NCBI RefSeq assembly: GCF_001995255.1
Contig: NZ_MUZR01000024.1
Location: 1-40,762, forward strand
Origin: Thioalkalivibrio halophilus
Lineage (GTDB): Bacteria; Pseudomonadota; Gammaproteobacteria; Ectothiorhodospirales; Ectothiorhodospiraceae
Reading direction: 5' to 3'
DNA: 40,762 nt
Of this stretch, positions 1,993 to 36,769 are shown piece by piece. Position 1 is the stretch's first letter, and each line of letters begins with the position of its first letter. The notes under the pieces are model-generated. The model saw only the letters and a list, made by a program, of their open reading frames with translations. It had not been told where the DNA came from and searched no databases. The position numbers and the translations under genes are program-made.

Positions 1993-2416
1993 TTTTCATT
2001 CCTGCTTCGCGATCCAAAAACTTCTGGATCTTTCCTATAGCTGCCTCGGTGTCGCCCAGCTCGCATTCCCAGATGACAAGCACTCGCCAGCCCATCGCGA
2101 GTAGCTTCTCCTGATTGACTTCGTCGCGGCGCCGATTCCCTTCCAGCTTTGTCCGCCAAAAATCGACCTTGGATTTCGGCAGTCGGGCACGAGCGCACCC
2201 GCGATGTCTATGCCAAAAGCAACCGTGGACGAATATTACGGCGTGTCGAGACGGGAAGGCCAGGTCTGGACAGCCGGTCAGGTCCTTGCGGTGAAGGCGA
2301 TAGCGATATCCCATGCCGTGAACAAGACGCCTGACCAGCATCTCGGGCTTGGTGTCCCTAGAGCGGATGCGGGACATTCGTTCACTCCGCTCGCTTGGCG
2401 CAAGTCTATCTGCCAG
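1976..2416 (-). CDS. vsr: Very short patch repair (Vsr) endonuclease, probable CTG start
   Basis: Nicks next to T:G mismatches that arise when 5-methylcytosine deaminates, so it guards sites methylated by the adjacent enzyme. Features in the 146-aa form: RSRDTKPE at 18-25, GCPD with the metal-binding Asp51, IFVHGCFWH at 61-69 with His64 and His69, zinc-type His/Cys at 66-74, and WECEL with Cys118. Family members begin a fixed short distance before the RSxxM motif; here that position is CTG at 2416, preceded by AAGGAG at a 7-nt spacing. The only longer alternative in frame is TTG at 2491, which adds 25 residues unlike the family. Confidence 0.88.
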   Translation of the reverse strand: MADRLAPSERSERMSRIRSRDTKPEMLVRRLVHGMGYRYRLHRKDLTGCPDLAFPSRHAVIFVHGCFWHRHRGCARARLPKSKVDFWRTKLEGNRRRDEVNQEKLLAMGWRVLVIWECELGDTEAAIGKIQKFLDREAGMKNDEGS

Positions 2417-2503
2417 TTTGCGGCTCCTTAAGGTCGAATACCCGTCGGATAGGACCCAGCGCCCGGAGTAGCGGCAGCTCACGGCCAGCAAGCTGAACTC
2501 GCT

Positions 2504-2749
2504 TCAGTGCACGATGTTGGGACATAGCGTTGAATGTTCTTCCCCGGTAAGCACGAAGAAGTCTTCGAGCCTACCGTTGAGCGTAACCCCGTCCGCCCAG
2601 GTAAGGCCGATCATTCCCGGGCCCTCGCCGATGAAATACTGACCCAGATGGTCCTTGTGTACGGGATACCGTAGGCTGGTCCAGTAAACCGCCTCGCGGC
2701 GATCCACAGCAGCCATAATTTCCCGTGCGTTACTGAATCCCTTGCGCAT
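2504..2749 (-). CDS. Small hypothetical protein upstream of vsr
   Basis: Predicted 81-aa soluble protein, no family recognised. It contains a well-formed mixed stretch (REAVYWTSLRYPVHKDHLGQYFIGEGPGMIGL) typical of a folded small domain, and starts at the ATG at 2749; only a weak GAGG lies upstream. It ends 87 bp before the vsr start, in the same direction, so it could be cotranscribed with the restriction cassette, perhaps as a controller or ICE cargo protein. No helix-turn-helix is obvious. Function unknown. Confidence 0.5.
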   Translation of the reverse strand: MRKGFSNAREIMAAVDRREAVYWTSLRYPVHKDHLGQYFIGEGPGMIGLTWADGVTLNGRLEDFFVLTGEEHSTLCPNIVH

Positions 2750-2827
2750 GGTGATGGGTTTGTCCTCACCTGACGGGGTGGGCCTCCAGTGGCGCGACCC
2801 AGTCGAAAAGGCGGATACGCACCCCAT

Positions 2828-3142
2828 TGGTATCGAGTCAGACTAAGGGGCGTGCGTGCCGCTGGCAAGGCTGGGGCTTTGCCTCGGTTCGCGCCCCCCT
2901 CTTAGCTGGGGCTCGGGCGCCGCCCCGTCGTTTCTGGATCGGTCTGCGTGTTCGATGCCATCAATGAACGGGATCCCGTGCTCGAGCTTGCCAAACCCGT
3001 AGTCCCAGAGCCAGCGCTACTGGGGCTGCGGGTGGTGCCTCTCCTTTGACCTTTCGCTCTGCCCTTTCCGGATAAGCCCCCTTGCCGTTCTCCATCCCAT
3101 TCCCTTCCCGGGCCTTTCCCTTTCTTGTAGATGCGTTGCTCG
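2828..3142. other. Intergenic stretch with no confident gene
   Basis: About 315 bp between the WGR pseudogene and the small gene at 2504-2749. The minus strand around 2900-3030 encodes, right after a stop codon and with no start, a protein-like stretch (WDYGFGKLEHGIPFIDGIEH); this may be the tail of a decayed gene. Nothing else supported. Confidence 0.3.
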
Positions 3143-3369
3143 TTAGCCGGTGTAGCCGCGTCTCGCCTTGGCAGACGCCCTTTGCGCCAGTTTCGCCGCT
3201 GCTTCGTCCAAGGTCCTGCACCAATCATCTCGGACCGTCCCCGGTCGGACGATACGACCCCACTCCGGGTGAGGGCGTAGGCCCCGAAGAGCCCCCGCCG
3301 GATGAACATCCGGTATGACCGGTATTGATGGCGGTCAGGGACAACTTTATGCAGGCGGATCTCGATCAT
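3143..3369 (-). pseudogene. WGR-domain protein, frameshifted
   Basis: Short WGR-domain protein (family linked to nucleic-acid binding, found alone or in PARPs and helicases). From ATG 3369 the frame reads MIEIRLHKVVPD...YRMFIRRGLFGAYALTR; the expected EWGRI then continues in another frame through LDEAAAKLAQRASAKARRGYTG to a TAA at 3143. The switch lies at about 3265-3270, where one base is missing; the total of 227 nt is one short of a whole frame. The start overlaps the end of the resolvase gene by 23 bp, so the intact ancestor was coupled to it. A sequencing error would make this a normal 75-aa gene. Confidence 0.75.
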
Positions 3370-3943
3370 CGCCACCCTCACGAAGTGCGGTTCGACCGCC
3401 GGGAAAGTGGCGATAGAGCGTGGCGGGCGAAACACTCAGCTGCTTGGCGAGTTCCCGCACGGGGGCATCGGAATGCGAAAGGACTGTCCACGCAAGGGCC
3501 AGCTGTTCGTCTGTAAGCGCCGGGGGGCGTCCGCCGGTGCGGCCACGCTGGCGCGCTGCGTCGAGGCCCGCACGGGTCCGTTCCTGCATGATGGAGCGTT
3601 CGAACTCGGCCACTGCGCCAAATACGTGAAAGACCAGCTTCCCGCCTGGGGTCGTGGTGTCGATGGATTCCGTCAGGGACTGGAACTCGATCCCGCGCTC
3701 CTCCAGGTCCCCGACGGTGGTGATGAGCTGCCGCATGGATCGGGCAAGCCTGTCCAGTCTCCAGACCACCAGGACGTCGCCCTGCCGCATGTAGTCCAGG
3801 GCCTCCCGAAGCTGCGGGCGGTTACGCTGGGCTCCGGATGCGCGGTCCTCGTAGATCCGGTCGCACCCGGCCTGCCGCAGAGCATCGGTCTGGAGCGATG
3901 GGTCCTGGTCCCGGGTAGAAACGCGTGCGTACCCGACTTTCAT
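3347..3943 (-). CDS. Serine resolvase / invertase family recombinase
   Basis: Small serine recombinase, 198 aa, full length. N-terminal catalytic domain: YARVST with nucleophile Ser9, YEDRASGAQRNRPQL near 31-45, WRLDRLARS near 61-69, and the long E helix around 100-125; C-terminal helix-turn-helix DNA-binding segment at about 143-181 ending in SPATLYRHF. Likely resolves cointegrates of a Tn3-type transposon, a multimer, or inverts a segment. No transposase lies nearby, so it may be a remnant of an element that brought the cargo in. The 138 bp upstream contain direct repeats and a palindrome suited to a res site. Confidence 0.93.
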   Translation of the reverse strand: MKVGYARVSTRDQDPSLQTDALRQAGCDRIYEDRASGAQRNRPQLREALDYMRQGDVLVVWRLDRLARSMRQLITTVGDLEERGIEFQSLTESIDTTTPGGKLVFHVFGAVAEFERSIMQERTRAGLDAARQRGRTGGRPPALTDEQLALAWTVLSHSDAPVRELAKQLSVSPATLYRHFPGGRTALREGGDDRDPPA

Positions 3944-18589: not shown

Positions 18590-19471
18590 CTACTCGTAGA
18601 GCTCTTCGCGGAGGCGCCAATAGACATCATCGGATTCGGTGATGAGGGAGTTGTTGTCGGCCATCCCCGCAGCTGTGAACCCCTCAGAGGTTACTACGCT
18701 GGCGTCGGCGCCGTGGTCGAGCAGGATTTCGACCATGTTCGGGCCGCTGACCGCAGCGGTTAATATGAGGGTGGTTATTCCGCTCTCGCTCCGCGCATTT
18801 ACGTCAGCGCCGCCCGCCAGCAGGGCCACAGCCATCGCCGGGCCGTTTTGCAACGCGGCGAACTTGAGGGCGGTCATTCCGCGCTCGTTCCGCGCATCGA
18901 TTTTGGCGCCATGGTCCAGCAGGGTCTCGGCCATGTCCGGGTCGTTGTCCTGAGCGGCGTACATGAGGGCAGTCGCTCCGGTAGCGGACCGCGCATCAAT
19001 GTTGGCGCCGTGGTCCAGCAGGGTCTCGGCCATGTCCGGGTCGTTGTTCTGAGCGGCGTACATGAGGGCGGTCATTCCGGTAGCGGACCGCGCATCAATG
19101 TTGGCGCCGTGGTCCAGCAGGGTCTCGGCCATGTCCGGGTCGTTGTCCTGAGCGGCGAACAGGAGGGCGGTCATTCCGCGCTCGTTCCGCGCATCGATTT
19201 TGGCGCCATGGTCCAGCAGGGTCTCAGCCATCGCCGGGTCGTTTTGCCCCGCGGCGACCATGAGCGCGGTCGAGCTGTTTTCGTACCGCCGCGCATAAAT
19301 TTTGGCGCCCGCCTCGATCGCGGCCCTAGCTTCACCGGGGGTGCCTGCCCACGCGGCCTGGAAAAGCCGGTTCGTTGGATCCGACGCGAAGGCCGTTTGC
19401 AGGAACAGGCCCAGGACCAGGATTGCCCCAAGGGCGATGCTCGGCAGCAGGGGGCGTTGGTTGCGAATCAT
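18590..19471 (-). CDS. Exported ankyrin-repeat protein (transposon cargo)
   Basis: 293 aa. Signal peptide at about 10-31 (LPSIALGAILVLGLFLQTAFA), then six or seven ankyrin repeats of 33 residues (G-x-TALMYAAQ-xNDPDMAETLLDHGAxIDAR) to about residue 275, then an acidic tail. Several repeats are almost identical at DNA level with 99-bp period (18900-19230), so recent repeat expansion. ATG 19471 has AAGGAG 7 nt upstream; the ATG upstream is not needed. Probably periplasmic, binding an unknown protein partner; bacterial homologues include AnkB-type proteins linked to oxidative stress, but no partner is visible here. Confidence 0.88.
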   Translation of the reverse strand: MIRNQRPLLPSIALGAILVLGLFLQTAFASDPTNRLFQAAWAGTPGEARAAIEAGAKIYARRYENSSTALMVAAGQNDPAMAETLLDHGAKIDARNERGMTALLFAAQDNDPDMAETLLDHGANIDARSATGMTALMYAAQNNDPDMAETLLDHGANIDARSATGATALMYAAQDNDPDMAETLLDHGAKIDARNERGMTALKFAALQNGPAMAVALLAGGADVNARSESGITTLILTAAVSGPNMVEILLDHGADASVVTSEGFTAAGMADNNSLITESDDVYWRLREELYE

Positions 19472-19573
19472 TCCGCCACTCCTTGGGTTGATGTGTGGGT
19501 AGGGCACCGATCGAACCGCCACTATACCAGTGCGGGTTTCCCTCGGTTTCACCGGCCCTGTGTGAATTTTTAC

Positions 19574-26201: not shown

Positions 26202-26663
26202 CTAAGGGGTATGGGCTGCCCGCCGCCAAGGCAGCGGACGTCGCCAATTCTCCGGGTCCCGCGTGTGGCGACTACGAAAAATCCTGAAGCGAGCGCGAAG
26301 GGTTTTTGAGTTATCCACAAAAACTGGGGATAACTGCATGGGAAAGAGGGGGAAGAAAGCGAGGGAACAAGGACTTGCCAGGCGTGGGCAAAACGTAACC
26401 AGCCACCCCGGTTGGGTCGGGGGTGGCTGATCCGCGAGTTGACTTCGATTGAGGTGCTTCAGGACCGGGCGCGTCGATTGTGCGATGGCCCGGTCGAGTA
26501 GGAGTCTTCCCCAGGGCGGATCGATCTCACCCTCCTGCAGTAGCGAGTCGTATTCCGGCGATCCATGGTTTTGGGGGGATGGATCTATCTCGAATGGCGC
26601 GGCAGTACCGCACAAAGGGACCCACGCTGCACCTGGCGGTGGGCGGCCAGTGATTTGAATCAC
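26202..26663 (-). CDS. Possible gene, perhaps decayed, after the first hairpin module
   Basis: GTG 26663 opens a 153-codon frame whose first 87 residues look protein-like (VIQITGRPPPGAAWVPL ... GSPEYDSLLQEGEIDPPW, then LLLDRAIAQSTRP). It begins a few bases after a strong hairpin like those ahead of the neighbouring genes. From about 26430 on, the frame runs through a hairpin (26401-26428) and the pilL regulatory element, so the true end was probably earlier and lost by frameshift. Family not recognised. Confidence 0.25.
   Translation of the reverse strand: MIQITGRPPPGAAWVPLCGTAAPFEIDPSPQNHGSPEYDSLLQEGEIDPPWGRLLLDRAIAQSTRPVLKHLNRSQLADQPPPTQPGWLVTFCPRLASPCSLAFFPLFPMQLSPVFVDNSKTLRARFRIFRSRHTRDPENWRRPLPWRRAAHTP
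26265..26307 (-). promoter_or_regulatory. Shared 43-bp upstream element, copy before pilL
   Basis: Same layout as 17616-17658: minus strand AAAAACCCT, CGCG-containing loop, AGGATTTTTCGTAGTCGCCAC. The last 21 positions are identical in the two copies. It lies 121 nt upstream of the pilL ATG with the leader terminator in between. Confidence 0.6.
26309..26335. promoter_or_regulatory. Inverted repeat with a DnaA-box-like TTATCCACA
   Basis: AGTTATCC and GGATAACT arms separated by 11 bp. The left arm continues as TTATCCACA, the DnaA box consensus. AT-rich relative to its surroundings, directly beside the 43-bp element. Could be a regulator site or part of an origin; no cluster of boxes is seen. 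Confidence 0.35.
26401..26428 (-). terminator. Terminator-like hairpin
   Basis: AGCCACCCC and GGGGTGGCT arms, perfect 9 bp, loop of 10; on the minus strand followed by GGTTACGTTTT. Would end transcripts from the module at 26664-26937 before the pilL leader. Confidence 0.45.
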
Positions 26664-26937
26664 GGAGACCAGAGTCTCCCCACGGCGGGCGCTACGCACC
26701 GACCGTGGGGAGACCCCCCTAAACCATTCGAGAAGAACTCGTGCCGGGCCCGGAGGGCCCAACGAGTTGACTTGTGAACCTCCACCGAGGATCGGTATTG
26801 ATCGACTGACCCGAGCCAGGGACAAAATTGGATCAGCCGACAGCGCCGGGCCGCAAAGGGGCAAATGCGGCACCCCCACTCTCGGCGCGTAGGGGCTTTT
26901 GCCGACGGGCGTCGGCAAGGGGCCTGATACGCTCAGG
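26664..26937 (-). promoter_or_regulatory. Multi-hairpin module 1 (most diverged)
   Basis: Contains GTCTCCCCACGG/CCGTGGGGAGAC (26674-26714), AACTCGT/ACGAGTT (26736-26768), TTGCCGAC/GTCGGCAA (26899-26918) and the conserved dyad CCTGATACGCTCAGG (26923-26937). Same order of parts as the modules below, but with different stem sequences. Confidence 0.55.
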
Positions 26938-27011
26938 CGGGCGGTGTAATACGCATTCAAACTCAAGGGCCCGATTCGGGCAATCCTCCAGACTGCAAAT
27001 GTTGAATCTCC

Positions 27012-27066
27012 GCCGTCATTCCCCAGGTGCGCGCGCGCACCTCGGGAATGACGGCCCGAAGGCCGT
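27012..27066 (-). terminator. Double hairpin after gene 27072-27527
   Basis: Minus strand: GACGGCC-TTCG-GGCCGTC (UUCG tetraloop) merging into CCGTCATTCCC/GGGAATGACGG with an inner GCGC palindrome. Similar hairpins follow the ArdC gene and others; no T-run. Confidence 0.5.
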
Positions 27067-27071
27067 CAGGG

Positions 27072-27527
27072 TTAGATCCAGCGGAAGACGTGCTGCATCC
27101 GCTCGCCCTCGGCGAGCGGTAGCTCCACGACATCCGCGCGGGCGTTGGCCCAAGTGTTGCCGCCATTCTCGGTGGCTTCCTGCCGCAGCGCTTCCAGTTT
27201 CCCGAGAGCGTCCGTAACAGCAAGCGTGGCGACGTAGTCGCCTACCAGCGGCGTGCCCTCGTCGGACACCCGCAGGGTGCGATATTCCGGCGACGTCAGT
27301 GGTGTCCCGGCGACTCGGGGAAAATCGAGCATCCCCGAAACCGCGTGGACGGCCTGCGCCCGATTCAGTCGCGGCAGGCCCTCGGCATCGCAGTCCATGT
27401 CGAGAAATACGCCATTGGGATCATTCCACGCCGCCCAGGCGAGAAGCTCGGCACGGGTGCCGTACTCCACCAGTCGTTTCTGGTACAGCGGGTCCCGATA
27501 CAGCGCCGCGAGTTCATAGGTGTGCAT
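27072..27527 (-). CDS. Hypothetical protein, accessory region
   Basis: 151 aa, acidic, no signal or membrane segment, family not recognised. N-terminal half has MHTYELAALYRDPLYQKRLVEYGTRAELLAWAAW and a DMDCDAEGLPRLN stretch; the C-terminal half is mixed. ATG 27527 has GCAGGAGACTGACC in front, the same leader end as its neighbours. Sits among antirestriction genes, so an anti-defence or early-transfer role is a reasonable guess only. Confidence 0.7.
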   Translation of the reverse strand: MHTYELAALYRDPLYQKRLVEYGTRAELLAWAAWNDPNGVFLDMDCDAEGLPRLNRAQAVHAVSGMLDFPRVAGTPLTSPEYRTLRVSDEGTPLVGDYVATLAVTDALGKLEALRQEATENGGNTWANARADVVELPLAEGERMQHVFRWI

Positions 27528-27730
27528 GGTCAGTCTCCTGCATGGAGGGGACAGACCGCTCCCACGGGGAGCGGTGTCCCCGTGGTGGGTGAAGTGAATG
27601 GATCGACCGGCGGAGCCGGCGCCCCTCCTCCCGGTCCGGAGGGGCTTTCAGGGGCCTGATACGCTCAGGCGGGCGGTAAAGCCGTCATTCCCCAGGGCCG
27701 CTCGCGACTCTCGGGAATGACGCCACCCCG
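27528..27730 (-). promoter_or_regulatory. Multi-hairpin module 2, full form
   Basis: From the start codon outward: GGGGACA...TGTCCCC with inner stem (27547-27581), CCGGC/GCCGG (about 27607-27620), GCCCCTC/GAGGGGC (27621-27645), dyad CCTGATACGCTCAGG (27655-27669), and CGTCATTCCC/GGGAATGACG (27683-27722). Each stem recurs in the other full modules. Confidence 0.7.
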
Positions 27731-27755
27731 CACCAGAGGCGGGAGTGGCGGTCGG

Positions 27756-27863
27756 TCAATGGCGCCGACGGTTTTGTCGGCGGGCGATCAGGTAGGCGCC
27801 GATCATCACGATCCCGATCAGTGCCAGCCCAATGAATACGCCGAAGTCTTCCATGAGCATCAT
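27756..27863 (-). CDS. 35-aa single-helix membrane peptide
   Basis: MMLMEDFGVFIGLALIGIVM followed by IGAYLIARRQNRRRH: one membrane helix with a strongly basic C-terminal tail. Begins 1 bp after the stop of the 54-aa gene, so cotranslated with it. A parallel pair lies at 33781-34083. ATG 27863 or 27860. No family known to me. Confidence 0.55.
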   Translation of the reverse strand: MMLMEDFGVFIGLALIGIVMIGAYLIARRQNRRRH

Positions 27864-27864
27864 C

Positions 27865-28029
27865 TTAGCTCTCCCAGCAGCCCACGAGCCAGAGGATCAG
27901 GCCCAGGACCACGGTGCTGAGTCCTCCTGCGGTGAATCCGCGTTCGATGAACAGAGCCAGGATTCCGGCAACAGCCAACAGTATGCCGGCCTGCCGCAGG
28001 CCTTCCTGGATTCGTGCGAGATTAAACAT
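27865..28029 (-). CDS. 54-aa two-helix membrane protein
   Basis: Two hydrophobic segments: GILLAVAGILALFIE (15-29) and LSTVVLGLILWLVG (38-51). Aligns with the 67-aa protein at 33880-34083 over (R/Q)xGIxLxVAGxxAxFxE and a second helix, so the two are probably paralogues. Has its own upstream hairpin (28049-28082) and an AAGGAG site. Followed by the 35-aa single-helix frame. Confidence 0.6.
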   Translation of the reverse strand: MFNLARIQEGLRQAGILLAVAGILALFIERGFTAGGLSTVVLGLILWLVGCWES

Positions 28030-28143
28030 GGTCTATCTCCTGCAAGGAGGGGACAGACCGCCCCACGGGGATCGGTGTCCCCGTGGTGGGTGAAAGCGTG
28101 CTCGCCCAGCAGATCGCTGGGTGAGCACGGACGGAGCGACAAG
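28030..28143 (-). promoter_or_regulatory. Multi-hairpin module 3, short form
   Basis: Start-proximal hairpin GGGGACA...TGTCCCC at 28049-28082, then a different hairpin TGCTCGCCCAGC/GCTGGGTGAGCA at about 28099-28127. Lacks the CCTGATACGCTCAGG dyad. Confidence 0.6.
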
Positions 28144-28145
28144 GG

Positions 28146-29540
28146 TTATGCCGCGACGGACTGATGTGGCTGCATCGAGTCCCGCAGGGCGGCTAGAGCG
28201 CGCCCGAGGTGCATTCCGACGGCTTCAAATGCGGCGTGCACCACAGACTGACCCAGGATTTCATGCGCGCGCGTGGCGGAGAGCCCTGCGATCAAGGACT
28301 CGGGAACCGCTTTGACGCGGGCATGCTCCTTCGGTGTCAACAGCCGAGTGAGCGCCGAGTCGCTCGGATGCCGAATGAACGGCTCGGTGGACCGCGCCTT
28401 TGCATACCCGCGTCCGATGGTCCCAAGGCTTGCCTCGGATCCATCGAGGAGCTGCCGCCGAAAGCCTTTTCCGGCCTCCTTGTCGCGGACCTCCTTCTCG
28501 GCCAGGTAGCTGTATGCCTTCCAGGCAGGATCGTCAGGGTCGATGTCCTCCAGGATGTCCCGGATACACGACTCACGATCCCGAACGGCACGCAGCCCGT
28601 CGAACGAGAATGGCACCTCCGGGTTGGTTGCAATCATGCAGAACCGATTGCGCCGCTCCATCGAGCCCAGCTCAAATCCATCGAGAACCGTCTCGTGCAG
28701 CTCGTAATCCAGGCTGCTCAAGATGGACCGGATCACCGTCATGCTGGTCGTGGTGCCGTACTGAGGCACGTTCTCCAGCAGGATCACACTCGGCCGCAAG
28801 GTCTGAATCGCCGCGAGAAACGCGACGAACAACGGACCAGCGGTTTCGTGCTCCTCGGCTTTCGCCAAGCGGTTTTTCGCTCGACCCGAGAGGGAGGCCC
28901 CTGTGCAAGGAAGCCCCGCCGCGAGGATGTCGATGGCCGGTAGCTTGCGCCACTCCACATCCTGCATTGGAGCCTCGATGGCGATCGAATCCGATTTCCA
29001 GATCGGATTGTTCGCCAACGACGCCTCCAAGTAGTCGCCGTCCGCCTCGTTGGCAAAGGCCAGCTCGACGGGGATTCCAGCGGCTTCCAGGCCTCGATGA
29101 AGGGCGTGGTCAAGAATACCCCCGCCGTGCGCCAGAGACCCCATACGCAGGGGCTCGTGCTGGTTCAGCCGCTCAAGCAGCCGGATCGAGCGCTCGGTTG
29201 TTGCTCGGTCGTGATGATGGACCCGGATCTCGATGGACCCGGGGCGGATGACCACGCGGACTCGCTCGGCCTCGCCGAAAGCGGACACGAGGGCCTCGCC
29301 CGACACATCGATGACCGGCAGTTCCTGGTCGCCCCGCTTGCGACGGGACACTTTCCGATCGCCAGATGGGGTGAACCGCAGGGTAATCCCTCCGTGCGGA
29401 CCATTCTCGCGATCAAGACTTTTCAGCTCGAACTGCTGACCCGGGCTGATCCCGGCCCGTGCCAGACGTCGGCCTTCCAGCCACAACCGCTTGGTCCCCT
29501 TGCGTTCTCCCAAGGTCGTGTAAATCACTGTCGTTGCCAT
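28146..29540 (-). CDS. Divergent C5 cytosine methyltransferase with extra N-terminal domain
   Basis: 464 aa. The N-terminal 120 residues (LWLEGRRLARAGISPGQQFELK ... PVIDVSGEALVSAFG) form a separate, AbrB/SymE-like beta domain. The methyltransferase part has altered motifs: GSLAHGGGI in place of FAGxGG, GLPCTGAS near 207-214 (Cys about 210) in place of GPPCQxFS, and a standard LLENVP near 256. No restriction gene adjoins it, so it is an orphan; in conjugative elements such enzymes can mark the incoming DNA against host restriction. Own full hairpin module upstream of ATG 29540. Confidence 0.82.
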   Translation of the reverse strand: MATTVIYTTLGERKGTKRLWLEGRRLARAGISPGQQFELKSLDRENGPHGGITLRFTPSGDRKVSRRKRGDQELPVIDVSGEALVSAFGEAERVRVVIRPGSIEIRVHHHDRATTERSIRLLERLNQHEPLRMGSLAHGGGILDHALHRGLEAAGIPVELAFANEADGDYLEASLANNPIWKSDSIAIEAPMQDVEWRKLPAIDILAAGLPCTGASLSGRAKNRLAKAEEHETAGPLFVAFLAAIQTLRPSVILLENVPQYGTTTSMTVIRSILSSLDYELHETVLDGFELGSMERRNRFCMIATNPEVPFSFDGLRAVRDRESCIRDILEDIDPDDPAWKAYSYLAEKEVRDKEAGKGFRRQLLDGSEASLGTIGRGYAKARSTEPFIRHPSDSALTRLLTPKEHARVKAVPESLIAGLSATRAHEILGQSVVHAAFEAVGMHLGRALAALRDSMQPHQSVAA

Positions 29541-29754
29541 AGGTCAGTCTCCTGCATGGAGGGGACAGACCGCCCCCACGGGGATCGGTTGTCCCCGTGG
29601 TGGGTAAAGGAATGGATCGACCGGCGAGCCGGCGCACCCCTGCCCGATCCGGGGGTGCTTTCAGGGGCCTGATGCGCTCAGGCGGGCGGTAAAGCCGTCA
29701 TTCCCGAGGGCCGCTCGCGGCCCTCGGGAATGACGCCCCCGCAGGGGCGTGTGG
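29541..29754 (-). promoter_or_regulatory. Multi-hairpin module 4, full form
   Basis: Start-proximal hairpin 29561-29596; CCGGCGAGCCGG; GCACCCC/GGGGTGC; dyad CCTGATGCGCTCAGG with one loop change (29668-29682); and a 40-bp near-perfect palindrome with CGTCATTCCCGAGGG arms (29696-29735). Confidence 0.7.
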
Positions 29755-30015
29755 TCAAGCGGCTTGCTTGCCGGTCGCAACCGCCAAAGCCAGCGATTCG
29801 ATCGGCTCGATTTCGGCGAGAAACGCCAGGTGTTCGAGTGCCTGAGCACGTAGGGCACCGGGCGACGTATCCATCGGCTCCAGTGCGTGCGAGTTGAGCA
29901 GGAATACGCCCGGGCCATGGCAGACCATGATCCGGGTCGCGTCCGAGCCAAGGGCGTACAGCCCTCGGTCCATGGGGACCAGGTCCCCAAGAATGGAGTG
30001 ATGTCGAGATTCCAC
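29755..30015 (-). CDS. Hypothetical protein, accessory region
   Basis: 86 aa, soluble, not recognised. GTG start at 30015 is supported by the shared AGGAGACTGACC leader directly before it. Sequence runs VESRHHSILGDLVPMDRGLYAL, a VCHGPGVFLLNSHALEP core and an Ala/Glu-rich C-terminal helix (AQALEHLAFLAEIEPIESLALAVA). Lies between the methyltransferase and ArdB genes. Confidence 0.6.
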   Translation of the reverse strand: MESRHHSILGDLVPMDRGLYALGSDATRIMVCHGPGVFLLNSHALEPMDTSPGALRAQALEHLAFLAEIEPIESLALAVATGKQAA

Positions 30016-30090
30016 GGTCAGTCTCCTGTGTCGAGGGACGACCGACCCCCAAAGGGGTGGTCGTCCCTTTGGGGAATGGAATACCGTCGG
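30016..30090 (-). promoter_or_regulatory. Multi-hairpin module 5, short form
   Basis: Only the start-proximal hairpin, 30035-30067: GGGACGACC pairs with GGTCGTCCC, and an inner ACCCC/GGGGT stem. The stem sequence differs from the GGGGACA type at both arms, i.e. compensatory change. Confidence 0.6.
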
Positions 30091-30513
30091 CTAGTCGATC
30101 GTGCGAAGGATCTCGCCGGACTCGTCGTGGTCCAGGGCGTAATCCCTCAACCAGTGGTACAGGTTGACGTGCCGATCTTCGCGAAAGCGCCAGGCCATCG
30201 CGTTGAAGGCGAACAGACAGGCAACAATGCCCGCCGCATCCGGACTTAACTCGCCCTCGTAGCCGTTACCGGGCACGACGATCCGCAGGTTCCGTTCCTG
30301 TTCGGGAGCCATATAGAAACCGCCGTTGGAAAGCTCGTAGAACTCCCAAAAGCCGCCCCGGTAGGCTTCCGCAAGGGTTCCCAGCGAATCGAAGACGCAG
30401 TTTTCAAATGCCAGGGCATGTGCCCCGAGATACCTCGGCAGGATCCGGATCCGTTCGAGGTCCGGGACACGGTGGCGATGAATCGCAAGATCCGTTTCAG
30501 TGCAAAACGTCAT
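30091..30513 (-). CDS. ArdB/KlcA-family antirestriction protein
   Basis: 140 aa, full length for the family. Typical blocks: RIRILPRYLGAHALAFENCVFD, YRGGFWEFYELSNGGFYMAPE near 50-70, and LSPDAAGIVACLFAFNAMAWRF near 88-110. ArdB proteins lower type I restriction of incoming DNA without directly blocking the enzyme. ATG 30513 is preceded by the GCAGGAGATAGACC leader and a hairpin module, which may serve early expression after transfer. Confidence 0.92.
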   Translation of the reverse strand: MTFCTETDLAIHRHRVPDLERIRILPRYLGAHALAFENCVFDSLGTLAEAYRGGFWEFYELSNGGFYMAPEQERNLRIVVPGNGYEGELSPDAAGIVACLFAFNAMAWRFREDRHVNLYHWLRDYALDHDESGEILRTID

Positions 30514-30662
30514 GGTCTATCTCCTGCATGGAGGGGACAGACCGCCCCCACGGGGGGTCGGTGTCCCCGTGGTGGGTGAAGTGAATGGATCGACCGGCGA
30601 GCCGGCGCACCCCTGCCCGATCCGGGGGTGCTTCAGGGGCCTGATACGCTCAGGCGTCTGTT
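30514..30662 (-). promoter_or_regulatory. Multi-hairpin module 6
   Basis: Start-proximal hairpin 30533-30568, CCGGCGAGCCGG, GCACCCC/GGGGTGC and the dyad CCTGATACGCTCAGG (30640-30654). The outer GTCATTCCC hairpin is absent; the upstream gene ends 8 bp further. Confidence 0.65.
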
Positions 30663-30866
30663 CTATGGATGGGCCCGCTGTGTCCAGGCGCCCGTATTCA
30701 GAGCCTCCGTGGCCGCCTCCTCCGTGGCGAAATACTCCAGGGATTCCCGCGACAACGGAGTCCCGTCCAGAGGGTCCGCCGTACCGACATACCAGCCTCG
30801 GGCGGATGCCATGGGCTGGAGTTCGACATGGTGGCCGAAGTATTCAAAAGCGATCTTCCCGTACAT
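30663..30866 (-). CDS. Small hypothetical protein
   Basis: 67 aa, not recognised: MYGKIAFEYFGHHVELQPMA followed by SARGWYVGTADP and a helical FATEEAATEALNTGAW end. Compact soluble domain. Starts 9 bp after the 111-aa gene, so in the same transcript and without a module of its own. Confidence 0.6.
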   Translation of the reverse strand: MYGKIAFEYFGHHVELQPMASARGWYVGTADPLDGTPLSRESLEYFATEEAATEALNTGAWTQRAHP

Positions 30867-30875
30867 CCTCGCCTC

Positions 30876-31211
30876 CTATCCGTACCGGATCCGGTGGAAT
30901 ACCTGGAGTTCTTCCTCCACGGAAAAGCCGTAGAGGTGGTAACTCCGAATCTCCTGATCCCCGGACTCGAAATCGATCTCCGGTTCAGTGGAGAACCACA
31001 GGTCGATGCCGGTCGGCGGGTCGCTGGAGGGGTGCACGGCACCCTTCCGGTTCAGGAACTCAACGGTCGCCTCGACGGCCGACGGATCCTCTGCGTCTTC
31101 GGGGTCCATACGGACCCCCTCGGAATCGATCCATCCTCGCTGGGAGGGTTCGCCAAGTTCCAGATCGACGGGCTTCCATCGCTCGAACGTGATCTTGATA
31201 CGCGCAGTCAT
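30876..31211 (-). CDS. Hypothetical acidic protein
   Basis: 111 aa, strongly acidic (DPEDAEDPSAVEATVEFLN; EPEIDFESGDQE), not recognised. N-terminal MTARIKITFERWKPVDLELG looks like a beta strand pair. Highly acidic small proteins in such regions can act as DNA mimics, but nothing here proves that. ATG 31211 with CCGGAGACAGACC in front; first gene of a pair with 30663-30866. Confidence 0.65.
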   Translation of the reverse strand: MTARIKITFERWKPVDLELGEPSQRGWIDSEGVRMDPEDAEDPSAVEATVEFLNRKGAVHPSSDPPTGIDLWFSTEPEIDFESGDQEIRSYHLYGFSVEEELQVFHRIRYG

Positions 31212-31448
31212 GGTCTGTCTCCGGATGGAGGGGACAGACCGCTCCCACGGGGAGCGGTGTCCCCGTGGTGGGTGAAGTGAATGGATCGACCGGCGAAGCC
31301 GGCGCACCCCTGCCCGATCCGGGGGTGCTTTCAGGGGCCTGATACGCTCAGGCGGGCGGTAAAGCCGTCATTCCCCAGGATCGCGCGCGACCCTCGGGAA
31401 TGACGGCCCGAAGGCCGTCAGGATTGAGGGTGGATTTCGAGCCGGGAT
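31212..31448 (-). promoter_or_regulatory. Multi-hairpin module 7, full form
   Basis: Start-proximal hairpin 31230-31264; CCGGC/GCCGG; GCACCCC/GGGGTGC; dyad 31338-31352; CCGTCATTCCC/GGGAATGACGG (31365-31406); and a UUCG-loop hairpin ACGGCC-CGAA-GGCCGT on the plus strand (31403-31418) next to the ArdC stop. Confidence 0.7.
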
Positions 31449-32396
31449 TTATCCCGCCTCCTCGGACTGCACCTCGGCCTCCGGCCGCAGGTGCTCAGCG
31501 GCTTTCCGCGCCTGACTGGCTGCACGGAAAATGGCCCGCTTGTCCTCTTTGAGCTTCCTGACCCAGGAGCCGATGTAGCCTTCGTGGCGAAGATCCCCCT
31601 GGATGCCGATCTCGGCACACAGGAAGGCGGCTCCCAGTTCAGCGACCAGCTCCTCGAACGCATAGCGCTCGGATCCGAAGTGATCAAACTCCACGATGCC
31701 TTCGCGCGCGAGTCGGGACTCGTGTCCCGTCCAGTGCGTGAGTTCGTGGAGTGCCGTGGCGTAATAACCGGCCTCTTCCCGAAACGACGCTTTCGGGGGC
31801 AACTGGATGTAATCCAGCTCGGGCGAATAGAACGCCCGGGTGCCCCCGTGTCGGATCAGAGCCCCGGAGGACTCCAGCACCGATTCCGCGGCCTCGATGG
31901 GCGTGAAGCTCGGTTCCGGGGCGTCCCCGGTGGGACCCACGCGATACCGGTCCTCCAGGCCATCGATCTGGTCTACGTTGAAGAGCTTGAAGGCCCGAAG
32001 GATCGGCACGGTTTTCATTACCGGCTCGCCCTTCTCGTCCGTCACCGGCTTGCCATCGCGGTCGGTCTTCTGCCGCTCGATCGGCTTGAAGAACACGGCC
32101 AGCGTGCTTTTCTCGCCCTTGCGCACCGACCCGCCGGCATCCTTCGCCTGCTTGAAGGTCATCCACCGACTGCTGGAATACCCGTGTGCCACCTCCCGCA
32201 TCCACAGGAGCATGACGTTGACGCCCTGATAGGGGCGATTGGTCGCGGCATTGACCGGCATTCCGCTCGCCAGGGCCGCCTTGTCGGGATTCCAGGGCTT
32301 GACCCAGGGGACCGTGCCCCCTTCGAGGGCCGCAACGATCTTGTCAGTGACCTCCTGGTAAAGGTCACGGGTTTCCTTCTGCTGCTTCTCAGCCAT
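31449..32396 (-). CDS. ArdC-like antirestriction protein (ssDNA-binding plus zincin domain)
   Basis: 315 aa. N-terminal ArdC domain (LYQEVTDKIVAALEGGTVPWVKPW, then NRPYQGVNVMLLW), which binds ssDNA in known members, and a C-terminal metallopeptidase-like domain with HELTHWTGHESR near 215-226 (zinc HExxH) and ELVAELGAAFLCAEIGI near 255-271. ArdC-type proteins protect the entering strand from restriction. Full hairpin module upstream of ATG 32396. Confidence 0.93.
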   Translation of the reverse strand: MAEKQQKETRDLYQEVTDKIVAALEGGTVPWVKPWNPDKAALASGMPVNAATNRPYQGVNVMLLWMREVAHGYSSSRWMTFKQAKDAGGSVRKGEKSTLAVFFKPIERQKTDRDGKPVTDEKGEPVMKTVPILRAFKLFNVDQIDGLEDRYRVGPTGDAPEPSFTPIEAAESVLESSGALIRHGGTRAFYSPELDYIQLPPKASFREEAGYYATALHELTHWTGHESRLAREGIVEFDHFGSERYAFEELVAELGAAFLCAEIGIQGDLRHEGYIGSWVRKLKEDKRAIFRAASQARKAAEHLRPEAEVQSEEAG

Positions 32397-32619
32397 GGTC
32401 TATCTCCTACGTGGAGGGGACAGACCACCCCCACGGGGATGTCTGTCCCCGTGGGGTGAAATTGTGAAGTCGGGACCGACCGGCTTTTGCCGGCGCACCT
32501 CTTCCCGATCCGGAGGTGCTTCAAGGGGCCTGATACGCTCAGGCGGGCGGTAAAGGCGTCTTCCCGGAAACGGCCGTACCGGCCGCCTCGGGGAAGACGC
32601 CCCGGAGGGCGTCCGAAGA
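32397..32619 (-). promoter_or_regulatory. Multi-hairpin module 8, full form
   Basis: Start-proximal hairpin with 10-bp stem GGGGACAGAC/GTCTGTCCCC (32416-32450); CCGGC/GCCGG; GCACCTC/GAGGTGC; dyad 32529-32543; outer hairpin now GCGTCTTCCC/GGGAAGACGC (32556-32600), both arms changed relative to modules 2, 4 and 7; and GACGCC/GGCGTC (32596-32613). Confidence 0.7.
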
Positions 32620-32790
32620 TCACGCCACCTGCAGCTGCAGATGATCGAGATCCGTGATGGACAGCTGGCCGAGGTCGTCCTCGGTAACAGGTTCGGCGGT
32701 CCGCGAATCGAGGACACTGAACCCGCACCGGAGGGCTTCCGCGACGGAATCGAACGAGGTGAAAACCTGGAGGATCGGACGCTGTTTCAT
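32620..32790 (-). CDS. Small hypothetical protein
   Basis: 56 aa: MKQRPILQVFTSFDSVAEAL, then CGFSVLDSRTAEPVTEDDLG and SITDLDHLQLQVA. Compact soluble alpha/beta pattern, no family recognised. ATG 32790 is preceded by AAGGAG with 7-nt spacing and a very long hairpin at 32813-32875. Confidence 0.6.
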   Translation of the reverse strand: MKQRPILQVFTSFDSVAEALRCGFSVLDSRTAEPVTEDDLGQLSITDLDHLQLQVA

Positions 32791-32899
32791 GGGGGTACTC
32801 CTTTTGCTTGTTGGGGGACACCACGGAACCTTCTCCGCGCTGGAGGCGGACGCGAGAAGATTCCGTGGTGCCCCCTCAACGGAGGAGACACCCAGAAGG
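32791..32899 (-). promoter_or_regulatory. Module 9: very long hairpin
   Basis: GGGGGACACCACGGAA (from 32813) pairs with TTCCGTGGTGCCCCC (to 32875), extended inward by CCTTCTCCGCG and CGCGAGAAG. About 25 base pairs in all. Occupies the same place as the start-proximal hairpin of the other modules. Confidence 0.6.
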
Positions 32900-33046
32900 T
32901 CAGGCCTCGGCCAGGGCCCAGTGTTTGGGCACCGACTTCGGCATCGGCCGCCGATTGCGATCCGGTTCGGAGAACCGGCGATCGAGCCGTGCTGCGACCG
33001 ACTGCCAGAGCTGACCTTCATTTTTCCGCGAAATGTGACGTCCCAT
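32900..33046 (-). CDS. Very small basic protein
   Basis: 48 aa: MGRHISRKNEGQLWQSVAAR, then LDRRFSEPDRNRRPMPKSVP and KHWALAEA. Basic, no hydrophobic segment, no family recognised; could bind nucleic acid. Support comes from its position right after a full hairpin module and a clean start. Confidence 0.5.
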   Translation of the reverse strand: MGRHISRKNEGQLWQSVAARLDRRFSEPDRNRRPMPKSVPKHWALAEA

Positions 33047-33270
33047 AGTGATCTGTCCTCAAAGTTTGGGGACAGACCACCCCACGGGGCGCTGTCCCCG
33101 TGGTGGGTAAAAATATGGATCGACCGGCAGAACCGGCGCACCTCTTCCCGATCCGGAGGTGCTTCAAGGGGCCTGATACGCTCAGGCGGGCGGTAAAGGC
33201 GTCTTCCCGGAAACGGCCTTGCCGGCCGGCTCGGGGAAGACGCCCCGGAGGGCGTCAGAAGAGAAGTTGA
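33047..33270 (-). promoter_or_regulatory. Multi-hairpin module 10, full form
   Basis: Start-proximal hairpin 33068-33099; CCGGCAGAACCGG; GCACCTC/GAGGTGC; dyad 33172-33186; GCGTCTTCCC/GGGAAGACGC (33199-33243). Closest relative of module 8. Confidence 0.7.
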
Positions 33271-33693
33271 TTACTCCGAGGTGGTTTCCTCGGGGGGTTC
33301 CTGGGTCGTGCGCTCGGCGGTATAGACGGTTTCGCCGTCCACTTTCACCCACGCGACACGCAACAGCCGAGCCTTCAGCGAGATTCCGGTTTCACCGGAT
33401 TTCTCGCCTTTCTTATAGACAAAGGTCTCGGGGTACAGATCCCCGAGCTTGAAGGCAATAAGGACCTTCTTTTCGTGATCGACGTAAGCCTTGGCGGCTT
33501 TGATCACGCGTTCCGCTTCCTGGCCGCTTACGCGGCAGTCGAAGCGGGTTTTCTCTGGGGCCTCACGATCTCCGTGAATAGCGACGATGTCGCAAGCCCA
33601 GAAAGGCTGGCCCTTCCTGGGCCGCACCTCACGGATGCGATTCACGTACCCGAGGCCAGAAATGTGCAAGTCAAAGTAGTGGGATTCGGACAT
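33271..33693 (-). CDS. STY4534-family ICE protein (DUF3577)
   Basis: 140 aa. Pattern of the STY4534 family, annotated as ICE replication proteins: SHYFDLHISGLGYVNRIREVRPRKG at the start, FDCRVSGQEAERVI near 51-64, KKVLIAFKLGDLYPETFVYKKGEKSGETGISLKARLLRVAWVKVDGE near 74-120. Probably a single-strand-binding or replication accessory. ATG 33693 follows a short module with a hairpin at 33716-33754. Confidence 0.9.
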   Translation of the reverse strand: MSESHYFDLHISGLGYVNRIREVRPRKGQPFWACDIVAIHGDREAPEKTRFDCRVSGQEAERVIKAAKAYVDHEKKVLIAFKLGDLYPETFVYKKGEKSGETGISLKARLLRVAWVKVDGETVYTAERTTQEPPEETTSE

Positions 33694-33780
33694 GGTGTTT
33701 CTCCTTATGACGAATCCGGAGAAACCATGCCCGTCCGGGGATTGGTTTCCCCGGTAGGGTGGATAAGGTCGGTGTCGTGG
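33694..33780 (-). promoter_or_regulatory. Multi-hairpin module 11, short form
   Basis: Only a start-proximal hairpin: CCGGAGAAACCA (33716-33727) pairs with TGGTTTCCCCGG (33743-33754), one G-U in the RNA. Different sequence from the GGGGACA type, same position. Confidence 0.6.
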
Positions 33781-33876
33781 TTACTTACGCTTCCTCTTTT
33801 CCTGTCTCCACACGATAAAGTGGACGACTAGGAAGACCGCAAGAACGACCGTTGTGGCAATGGCGAGTGGATCCAT
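33781..33876 (-). CDS. 31-aa single-helix membrane peptide
   Basis: MDPLAIATTVVLAVFLVVHF followed by IVWRQEKRKRK: one membrane helix and a strongly basic tail, like the 35-aa peptide at 27756-27863. GAGGAG at 7-nt spacing before ATG 33876. Begins 3 bp after the stop of the 67-aa gene. Confidence 0.55.
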   Translation of the reverse strand: MDPLAIATTVVLAVFLVVHFIVWRQEKRKRK

Positions 33877-33879
33877 AAG

Positions 33880-34083
33880 TCACTCCTCGTTGTTTTGCAC
33901 GTTCACCAATCCAAGCAGGATCAGGAACACGCCACTGAGAATGGCGTACAGAGCGCTTGCAAAGGACACGTGCTCGGGTTCGAGAAAGACCGCGATCAAG
34001 CCGGCTACGGTCAGAGCAATGCCGACACGGCGGGAATCCTCCCGGAAGCCTTGCGGATCTATGGACACCCGTTTACCTCTCAT
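33880..34083 (-). CDS. 67-aa two-helix membrane protein
   Basis: Basic N-terminus (MRGKRVSIDPQGFREDSRR), then helices VGIALTVAGLIAVFLE and ASALYAILSGVFLILLGLVNV and an acidic end. Similar to the 54-aa protein at 27865-28029 in the first helix and overall plan, and likewise followed by a one-helix basic peptide. GGAG upstream of ATG 34083, and its own hairpin module. Confidence 0.62.
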   Translation of the reverse strand: MRGKRVSIDPQGFREDSRRVGIALTVAGLIAVFLEPEHVSFASALYAILSGVFLILLGLVNVQNNEE

Positions 34084-34270
34084 GGTTCTCCTCCGGTTAT
34101 AGCCGGAAGAGACTCGCCCTGCCGGGGGAGTCTCCCCGGCAGGGTGGGTGGAAATGATGTCGGGACCGACTGGCTGTACCAGCGCACCCCTGCCCGGTCC
34201 GGGGGTGCTTGAAGGGGCCACGATACGCACGTGGTGGGCGTTGAAGACTGTTATTGCTGGAAAACTAGCC
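34084..34270 (-). promoter_or_regulatory. Multi-hairpin module 12, full form with compensatory changes
   Basis: Hairpin GAGACTC/GAGTCTC with inner GCCCTGCCGGGG pairing (34109-34134); CTGG/CCAG in place of CCGG/CCGG (about 34169-34181); GCACCCC/GGGGTGC; and CCACG-ATACGCA-CGTGG (34218-34234) where the other modules have CCTGA/TCAGG. Every stem is kept although bases differ. Confidence 0.7.
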
Positions 34271-34534: not shown

Positions 34535-36769
34535 TCAGTCGAACTGCAGCTGCACCTTGCCTTCCGTTAGTTTCGCACCGGCATCAAAGGTTTTGCCAGT
34601 CCGTTTGCTCTTGAGACCCTTGAGCTGTACCAGGTCCCCCGCGAACAGCGTGAGCGCCTGGGTCTCGGTCAGCTTCTTGCCACTGAGCTGCTTCCAGACA
34701 ATGGCGTTGCACGCTTCGCACTGCCAGGCCTTGGGTGATTCCTTGATGTTGCCCTGCTGGGCGCAGCCGCACTGCCCGACCGGCCCCTGTTTTGGGGCCT
34801 TGCCGGGTTTTCCGCCCTGGTCGGGCAGCGTGGTCGTGCAGTCCGGATAGCGGGTACAACCCCAAAACGCCCCGGACCCGCCCTTGCGGCGCCGCATGGG
34901 CGAACCGCATGCGGGGCAGGCGTGCTGGGCCTGCGCCTCGACCTGAACCGCGTCGGCGCCCTGCTGTTGAACGTTCTGCACCAGTCGCTTGACCCATTCG
35001 GACTGCCGTTGCAGGAACCCGTCGATCTCGCCTTCGCCCTTGGCGATCTGGTCCAGAGCCTGTTCCCACAGGGCCGTGGTGGACGGGTCCTTCACCGGAT
35101 CCGGCAGCGCATCGATCAGCGACCGGGCGGCGGCCGTGGAGGTGAGTTTCTTCTTGCGCTCCTCCAGGTAGCCGCGATCCATGAGGGTCTGGATGATCCC
35201 GGCGCGCGTCGCCTCCGTGCCGATGCCCGTGTTCTCTTTCAGGACGCGCCGCAGCCGCTCGTCCGCGATCTCGCGGGCGATGTTCTTCATGGCGGCGAGC
35301 AGCGTGCCCTGGGTAAAGCGTTCCGGCGGGGTGGTTTCCTTGTCGCGGATCTGCGCGCCGGCCAGTGAGACGGGGTCGCCTTTCTGCACGTTGGGAAGGG
35401 CCTGGTCGCTTTCGGCGCGCTCCTCGGCCGAAGCGTCCGTCTGGATCAGTACACGCCAACCGGTTCGGCGATTGACGCGCCCCTGCGTGCGGAACGTTTC
35501 GCCTTCGGCCGCGACTTCCAGCCGCGTCTGGTCGTACTCGTAGGCGGGATAGAACTGTGCAATGAAACGGCGTCGGATCAGGTCGTAGACCGCCTGTTCC
35601 CGCGACGACATCGCGTGGACATCCGCGACGGCGGTGGTCGGGATGATGGCGTGGTGTGCCGTGATCTTCGCGTCATTCCAGCAGCGTCCCTGTACGGCGG
35701 CATCCGCGCCTTCGACCAGGTGTTCGATGGTCGAGTCGCTCTGCATCAGTCCCTGCAGGACGTCGCGTGCCTCGCCGTGCTGGCTGACGGGCAGGTAGCG
35801 GCAGTCGGTCCGGGGATAGGAGGTGGCTTTGTGCTTCTCGTACAACGACTGTGCGGTATCGAGGACCTCCTGCGCCCCCATCCCCAGCCGTTTCGATGCC
35901 TCCTGTTGCAGCGTCGAGAGATCGTAGGGCAGCGGCGCGTTCTCGCGCTTGCGCTCGGTCTGCGCCAGGGTCACGGTGCCTTGCACCCCCTGTACACGCT
36001 GCGCCACAGAGGCGGCCGCCTGTTGACTGGTACAGCGGCCTTCGGAGTCACTCACTCCCTCGGGTGGCACCCATCGGGCCTCCCACGCGCCGTTCGTATG
36101 GCCGCAGCGGACCGATACCTCGTAGTACGGGACTGGCTTGAACTGTTCGATCGCGCGGTCACGATCGACCACGAGCTTGAGGGTGGGCGTCTGGACGCGC
36201 CCGACCGAGAGCACGCCGTCATACCCGCGTGCCTGCGCCGCGAGGGTGTAGGCCCGCGTGAGGTTCATGCCCACAAGCCAATCGGCGCGGGCGCGTGCCA
36301 CGCCGGCGCGGTACAAGGGGAAGGTTTGATCCCCCGGTAGCAGGTTGGCGAGGGCCTTGCGCACGCTGGCCTCGTCCAGCGCGGCGAGCCAGAGGCGCTG
36401 GATCGGCCCCCGGTAGCCGCACAGATCCAGCACCTCGCGCGCAATCGTCTCGCCTTCCCGGTCGGCGTCCGTCGCGACGACGACTTCGGAGGCCTGTTTC
36501 AGCAGGGACCGGATGCTGGAAAAGTGCCCCTTCACCTTGGGTCGCACGTTCATTCGCCACTGGTCCGGCAGGATGGGGAGCGTCTCCACGCGCCACTGCT
36601 TGAGCGCCGGGTCATAGTCTTGTGGCGGGGCCATTTCCAACAAATGCCCGAAGCACCAGGTGACCGTCACCCCATCCCCGCGAATACACGCATTTTCCTT
36701 GCGCGATGCTCCCAGCACACGCGCAATGTCGCGGGCCTGGGATGGTTTTTCCGCAAGAAAGAGCTTCAT
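34535..36769 (-). CDS. topB: DNA topoisomerase III (type IA)
   Basis: 744 aa. Toprim domain MKLFLAEKPSQARDIARVLG at 1-20 and ATDADREGETIARE near 95-108; active-site region ATSYPRTDCRYLP with the catalytic Tyr near 318; RVQTPTLKLVVDRD near 193; C-terminal zinc ribbons CPACGSPMRRRKGG / GCTRYPDC near 617-645 and CEACNAI near 680. TopB copies are part of this ICE class core, probably for decatenation during ICE replication or transfer. ATG 36769 overlaps the previous stop (ATGA). Confidence 0.95.
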   Translation of the reverse strand: MKLFLAEKPSQARDIARVLGASRKENACIRGDGVTVTWCFGHLLEMAPPQDYDPALKQWRVETLPILPDQWRMNVRPKVKGHFSSIRSLLKQASEVVVATDADREGETIAREVLDLCGYRGPIQRLWLAALDEASVRKALANLLPGDQTFPLYRAGVARARADWLVGMNLTRAYTLAAQARGYDGVLSVGRVQTPTLKLVVDRDRAIEQFKPVPYYEVSVRCGHTNGAWEARWVPPEGVSDSEGRCTSQQAAASVAQRVQGVQGTVTLAQTERKRENAPLPYDLSTLQQEASKRLGMGAQEVLDTAQSLYEKHKATSYPRTDCRYLPVSQHGEARDVLQGLMQSDSTIEHLVEGADAAVQGRCWNDAKITAHHAIIPTTAVADVHAMSSREQAVYDLIRRRFIAQFYPAYEYDQTRLEVAAEGETFRTQGRVNRRTGWRVLIQTDASAEERAESDQALPNVQKGDPVSLAGAQIRDKETTPPERFTQGTLLAAMKNIAREIADERLRRVLKENTGIGTEATRAGIIQTLMDRGYLEERKKKLTSTAAARSLIDALPDPVKDPSTTALWEQALDQIAKGEGEIDGFLQRQSEWVKRLVQNVQQQGADAVQVEAQAQHACPACGSPMRRRKGGSGAFWGCTRYPDCTTTLPDQGGKPGKAPKQGPVGQCGCAQQGNIKESPKAWQCEACNAIVWKQLSGKKLTETQALTLFAGDLVQLKGLKSKRTGKTFDAGAKLTEGKVQLQFD

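Follow-up and report, generated by a model that had tools for sequence, protein, structure and literature searches.

Repeated gene leaders in an integrative and conjugative element of Thioalkalivibrio halophilus probably act as RNA switches of translation and have an upstream domain resembling radC RNA in layout

The stretch of DNA analysed here (the window, 40,762 nt) is one whole contig (C24, NZ_MUZR01000024.1) of the 2.87-Mb genome of Thioalkalivibrio halophilus, and Thioalkalivibrio was the closest among the relatives fetched. Its minus-strand genes, which include TraD (TIGR03754), TraC (TIGR03744), a PFL_4669 family member, SSB and a topoisomerase, are those of an integrative and conjugative element (ICE). 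The part from 27.0 to 34.1 kb holds genes for antirestriction (PF03230), ArdC, a C5 methylase and DUF3577/STY4534, besides small unknown genes. An original prediction, made from the DNA letters, had proposed an ICE carrying anti-defence genes, each preceded by a multi-hairpin module that would act as a promoter on single-stranded DNA. The ICE identity (TraD, TraC, PFL_4669 family, STY4534/DUF3577) and the anti-defence set (KlcA/ArdB-type antirestriction, ArdC, orphan C5 methylase) were both supported, and a module per gene was found in most cases. The promoter reading was not supported, and we consider it likely that the modules are translational on/off RNA switches, one per cistron, off by default and with a radC-like upstream domain.

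The repeated modules were recovered by repeat search where they had been described. A 30-nt CCTGATACGCTCAGG block has seven copies in the window and a 181-nt repeat has four, at 60% identity or more. When the dyad CCTGATACGCTCAGG was sought in the whole genome with up to 2 mismatches, nine sites were found, seven in the module region and two elsewhere, both of the latter with 2 mismatches; the reversed-sequence control gave 0 sites in the genome. The hairpin order counted from the start codon also agreed with the original prediction. A set of 12 minus-strand open reading frames (ORFs) of at least 48 amino acids, with starts between 27.0 and 34.1 kb, was picked by hand. Ten of them are preceded by a start-proximal unit (ten minus-strand matches to our model R1, E 3.3e-16 to 4.1e-7), and seven of these ten also have a 5′-domain (model R2). 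The ORF starting at 32790 has one long hairpin and lacks the unit, the ORF starting at 30866 has neither, and a decayed module without the unit, matched by neither R1 nor R2, is located at about 26.86-27.06 kb. Related hairpins said to stand before ssb and a DUF7673-like gene were not reproduced, as R1 had no matches there up to E 10 except at 36266-36342 (E 3.3); plain hairpins at both genes were not looked at. Terminator-like sites numbered 14 against 9.3 expected, none of them assigned to modules, and blastn of the module DNA against plasmids gave no match.

The ten window leaders end in a unit of about 65 nt with three competing pairings. In gene sense its strands are lettered a to e. Pairing X joins a and c (CCACGGGGA..TCCCCGTGG), Y joins b and d (GGGGACACC..GGTCTGTCCCC), and Z joins d and e (GGTCTGTCCCCTCC..GGAGACTGACC-ATG), strand e being the Shine-Dalgarno sequence just ahead of the start codon. 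Y excludes both X and Z, and Z covers the Shine-Dalgarno sequence. The start-proximal hairpin described earlier consists of two alternative hairpins plus a third over the Shine-Dalgarno sequence. Conserved, mutually exclusive pairings of which one covers this sequence are what is expected of a translational RNA switch, and the leaders compared here show them, within the limits given below. The letters differ among window copies with compensation, as in GGGACGACC/GGTCGTCCC at 30.0 kb and GGGGAAACC/GGTTTCTCC/GGAGAAACACC at 33.7 kb. This bears on the possibility that the dyads are double-stranded operators bound by a transcription-regulating protein: the dyad CCTGATACGCTCAGG is indeed repeated seven times almost unchanged, and in this element only, but compensated changes of stem letters between copies and species would not be tolerable for an operator, and we regard this explanation as very improbable.

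The unit is not confined to the window. It lies upstream of DUF3577 in 80 of 80 loci fetched, and it also occurs in the well-known element pKLC102. In a 12-kb stretch of pKLC102, nine of ten plus-strand matches end at annotated starts; one strong match (L117, 6537-6599, E 3e-8) has its end at none of them, which suggests a small unannotated gene there. Of 274 genomes sampled from the class to which the window belongs, 26 have the unit at E 1e-4 or better, two of these being of the window's own genus. No paper about the switch itself was found among titles in the literature searched. PADLOC was also run on 79 switch-led proteins (8 of 87 having been dropped) and was uninformative, returning chiefly shared helicase domains.

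Covariation was examined in two leader sets, and in both the own pairing partners outscored swapped ones. The first comprised the DUF3577 leaders after removal of those more than 80% identical (80 to 45), aligned with L-INS-i. The second was made from 150 R1 matches by taking away the rows for DUF3577, for the window and for the minus strand, together with ORFs below 20 amino acids (95 left, or 85 after removal of those more than 80% identical). Own against swapped scores in this set were -16.8 and -11.9 for Y, -12.5 and -8.0 for Z and -19.0 and -15.3 for X (0 of 5000 permutations each), and the controls were flat (3562 and 3536 of 5000). As a model of X and Z had served to choose these rows, Y alone is free of selection, and the permutation tests ignore kinship, with no tree correction.

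In seven window modules the unit is preceded by a 5′-domain formed by P1 (CCTGA-GCGTA-TCAGG), P2, whose loop is CGGATCGGGNA, P3 (CCGGC..GCCGG) and then TCGATCCA. In the P2 loop (the GCACCCC hairpin) GGATCG is complementary to CGATCC 3′ of P3, which would form a pseudoknot. A regular expression for it, with two variable letters and composed after inspection of the window copies, matched in front of 34 of the 150 units, from 11 sources, versus 0.7 in letter shuffles; two of its 36 matches (62 nt, L028 and L029) look spurious. In an alignment of 18 of 21 sequences, with the three from L076 left out, P2, P3 and pseudoknot together had 93.5% versus 78.8% paired cells and 45 versus 14.7 double changes; five of the six pseudoknot pairs are invariant in this set, and additional pair types were not unusual in number (100 of 500 shuffles). 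With R2, which was built without the pseudoknot, a search of 81 sources gave 46 copies at E 0.1 or better, every one on the gene strand, and the pseudoknot is paired in all but the one at 27598-27675 of the window. Compensated forms are GGACCG:CGGTCC and, both in L031, AGATCG:CGATCT (E 0.002) and GGATCA:TGATCC (E 0.014). The switch follows 39 of the 46 copies at 7-104 nt. The other seven (L032:11752, L035:11487, L048:12312, L034:1060, L030:14431, L078:11272 and L078:18841) have no recognised switch and possibly precede a different downstream platform. An accessory GTCATTCCC hairpin occurs six times in the window; L027-L029 also have it, L030 has a single copy, and L032, L048 and L078 lack it.

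The 5′-domain can be compared to radC RNA (RF01754), reported as a candidate by Weinberg in 2010 (PMC2864571, accessible part). This RNA also has hairpins P1, P2 and P3, with a P2 loop that pairs behind P3 in 18 of 19 parsed matches (permuted mean 13.9, 0 of 2000; 6 of 25 unparsed), a pairing unmarked in the Rfam structure line. Both occupy the leaders of ICE and DNA-handling genes. In other ICEs radC RNA takes the same leader position, with three copies in L019 and 22 in seven chosen loci, and it directly precedes the X/Y/Z unit in 17 of these 22 and in all three pKLC102 matches. It was matched in 26 of 34 chosen genomes, a rate that is not unbiased since these genomes and the seven loci were hand-picked mostly for radC-type leaders. 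The sequences of the two domains are different, however: the radC model has no window match at the Rfam gathering threshold of 40 bits, nor any at E 10 or better between 26.1 and 34.6 kb, and R2 matches no radC locus. The X/Y/Z unit lies outside the Rfam radC model except for an overlap with its last hairpin. Judged by sequence, the window domain is thus radC-like in layout and not a radC member. Rfam as a whole gave nothing at gathering thresholds in the window and only unrelated weak matches in 26.1-34.6 kb (best E 0.002, a microRNA model). Under the method of a 2020 paper radC RNA gains covarying pairs, and its pseudoknot may already have been proposed there (PMC7657543, accessible part); a later functional study of radC RNA was not found in the literature searched.

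Predicted folding is in line with a closed default state. In 53 of 55 leaders the off fold, computed without Y, is favoured over the fold computed without Z, the mean difference being 6.1 kcal/mol; one alignment used 36 of these 55, chosen for diversity. Of four Shine-Dalgarno bases, a mean of 1.49 are open in the fold without Z and 0.33 in the off fold, and the mean ensemble probability of opening is 0.10 in the 55 leaders versus 0.42 for 12 other starts in the window, out of 16 tried. The leader is predicted by the folding model to be off unless acted upon. The idea that transcripts starting inside X are on was dropped, as trimming made the Shine-Dalgarno sequence more open in 6 of 55 leaders and less open in 1 of 55.

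Single-strand promoters of the Frpo/ssi type, at which the incoming T-strand would fold and RNA polymerase start before second-strand synthesis, are a rather improbable explanation. Anti-defence, ssb and methylase genes do share one strand, hairpins can fold in both strands, and for the leading regions of plasmids repeated Frpo-like promoters upstream of same-strand anti-defence genes have been described (PMC11541004, accessible part). Frpo, however, is recognised through -35 and -10 elements in folded single-stranded DNA according to the same text, and a consensus scan of the linear sequence gave 0 sigma-70-like promoters in 26.0-40.8 kb against 2.1 expected from shuffles; the scan is not decisive, because the candidates listed in PMC11541004 include strongly altered -35/-10 elements. 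The window unit differs further in abutting start codons and covering the Shine-Dalgarno sequence, around which it is organised, its pairings co-vary, its pseudoknotted domain shares the layout of an Rfam RNA, and radC RNA stands in the same place in relatives.

The acting strand was also addressed by counting G-U (in gene sense) against A-C pairs. With symmetric scoring, the first set gave 56:5 for Y (swapped 3.4:1, letter-shuffled 2.5:1), 37:19 for Z (1.2:1 and 0.96:1) and 9:19 for X (0.71:1 and 0.68:1), and the second gave 76:16 for Y (letter-shuffled 3.2:1), 40:52 for Z (1.1:1) and 29:25 for X (1.3:1); the 41:9 for P1-P3 was counted in a model-fitted alignment, in which G-U is favoured. 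The counts for Y lean to the mRNA-sense strand and are not decisive. The case for RNA would rather rest mainly on the contact that the unit makes with the start codon and the Shine-Dalgarno sequence, on the C-UUCG-G loops that L078 has in P3, on the pseudoknot and on the co-located radC RNA. The STAXI motif is a related case. It, too, is structured and occurs in repeated copies close to genes for ssb, topoisomerase, antirestriction and integrase, and its authors compared single-stranded DNA with RNA and leaned towards RNA owing to UUCG loops (PMC2864571, accessible part). It consists of tandem pseudoknot repeats of another architecture, and its model RF01728 has no window match.

The three pairings, the pseudoknot, the start-codon contact and the gene set can be read from the sequences compared; the function, trigger and timing of the leaders we infer as follows. 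Each module would be the 5′ leader of a single mRNA cistron, a 5′-domain of three hairpins and a pseudoknot followed by the common 3′-unit. Three strands of this unit would compete, namely b (GGGGACACC-like), d (GGTCTGTCCCC-like) and e, the Shine-Dalgarno sequence. X and Z together would bury the Shine-Dalgarno sequence and keep translation off, the predicted default, while Y would disrupt both and could free it for translation. The 5′-domain may bias the choice between the pairings, and the trigger may be a factor tied to the life cycle of the element. Each cistron would need its own copy because control acts on translation.

Translational riboswitches combine a 5′-domain with Shine-Dalgarno sequestration and alternative pairing. 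The window leaders share this layout, but no ligand is known for their switch, which often stands without a recognised 5′-domain.

The switch reading has some weak points. The fold without Z forms Y in only 6 of the 10 window leaders (27527, 28029, 30015, 30513, 31211, 33693) and retains X in the other four (29540, 32396, 33046, 34083), the strand test backs RNA in the first set and hardly in the second, and the oriT of the window element was not located. A static leader, whose hairpins stabilise the mRNA or insulate cistrons and keep translation low without switching, is an unlikely alternative. It is tempting to speculate, although with little confidence, that the switches provide zygotic induction at the RNA level, where a factor in the settled host keeps anti-defence and establishment genes translationally silent and its lack in the recipient opens the whole set together on entry, cistron by cistron. 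As regards transfer direction, in three relatives a relaxase gene (PF07514) shares the strand of DUF3577 and lies about 34 kb (G022), 38 kb (G043) and 91 kb (G041) downstream of it, whereas in the other five genomes it is on another contig; for ICEclc, oriT1 and oriT2 are named in the accessible part of PMC6561031.

Our data place radC RNA in a modular leader whose 3′-half is a conserved Shine-Dalgarno switch, common to ICEs with other 5′-domains, and add a 5′-domain class missed by the Rfam radC model. If the switch reading is true, it offers a testable answer on the timing of anti-restriction genes, namely translation, per cistron, and not promoters alone.

Table 1. Leader features of the module region, in window coordinates
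Feature	Position	Strand	Evidence
X/Y/Z switch before ORF 27072-27527 (unknown protein)	27525..27589	-	R1, E 4e-15
5′-domain (P1, P2, P3), leader of ORF 27072-27527; sole copy with broken pseudoknot pair	27598..27675	-	R2
Accessory GTCATTCCC hairpin	27681..27722	-	repeat search
Switch without 5′-domain, before ORF 27865-28029	28027..28090	-	R1, E 5e-15
Switch before C5 methylase 28146-29540	29538..29604	-	R1, E 3e-14
5′-domain with pseudoknot	29612..29688	-	R2
Accessory GTCATTCCC hairpin	29694..29735	-	repeat search
Switch without 5′-domain, before ORF 29755-30015	30013..30076	-	R1, E 6e-9
Switch before antirestriction gene 30091-30513 (PF03230)	30511..30576	-	R1, E 3e-16
5′-domain with pseudoknot	30585..30660	-	R2
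Switch before ORF 30876-31211 (unknown)	31209..31272	-	R1, E 5e-15
5′-domain with pseudoknot	31281..31358	-	R2
Accessory GTCATTCCC hairpin	31364..31407	-	repeat search
Switch before ardC 31449-32396	32394..32458	-	R1, E 7e-16
5′-domain with pseudoknot (one U-G pair)	32471..32549	-	R2
Accessory hairpin, GTCTTCCC variant	32555..32601	-	repeat search
Single long hairpin before ORF 32620-32790, switch not found	32814..32875	-	repeat search, R1 negative
Switch before ORF 32900-33046	33044..33107	-	R1, E 4e-7
5′-domain with pseudoknot	33115..33192	-	R2
Accessory hairpin, GTCTTCCC variant	33198..33244	-	repeat search
Switch without 5′-domain, before DUF3577/STY4534 33271-33693	33691..33760	-	R1, E 8e-16
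Switch before ORF 33880-34083	34081..34145	-	R1, E 1e-9
5′-domain, compensated pseudoknot GGACCG:CGGTCC	34161..34240	-	R2
Decayed module: dyad and accessory hairpin, without switch; upstream of type IV secretion system (T4SS) genes	26860..27055	-	repeat search; R1, R2 negative

The decayed module is part of an extended non-coding region (26202-27055) that lies upstream of the T4SS genes; this region also holds a separate inverted repeat, GTCTCCCCACGG/CCGTGGGGAGAC, near 26.67-26.72 kb and could contain regulatory or transfer sites. At 27.75-27.86 and 33.79-33.88 kb, small genes led by a switch are followed by very short ORFs (about 30 codons), with which they possibly form gene pairs. An ORF inside the T4SS gene run (18590-19552) is ankyrin-repeat-like by eye. 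At the left end of the window lie ORFs 769-1992 and 1976-2491, which from their translations we take to be a second C5-methylase-like and a Vsr-like gene, and a resolvase at 3347-3943; the stretch 769-3943 is apparently accessory DNA.

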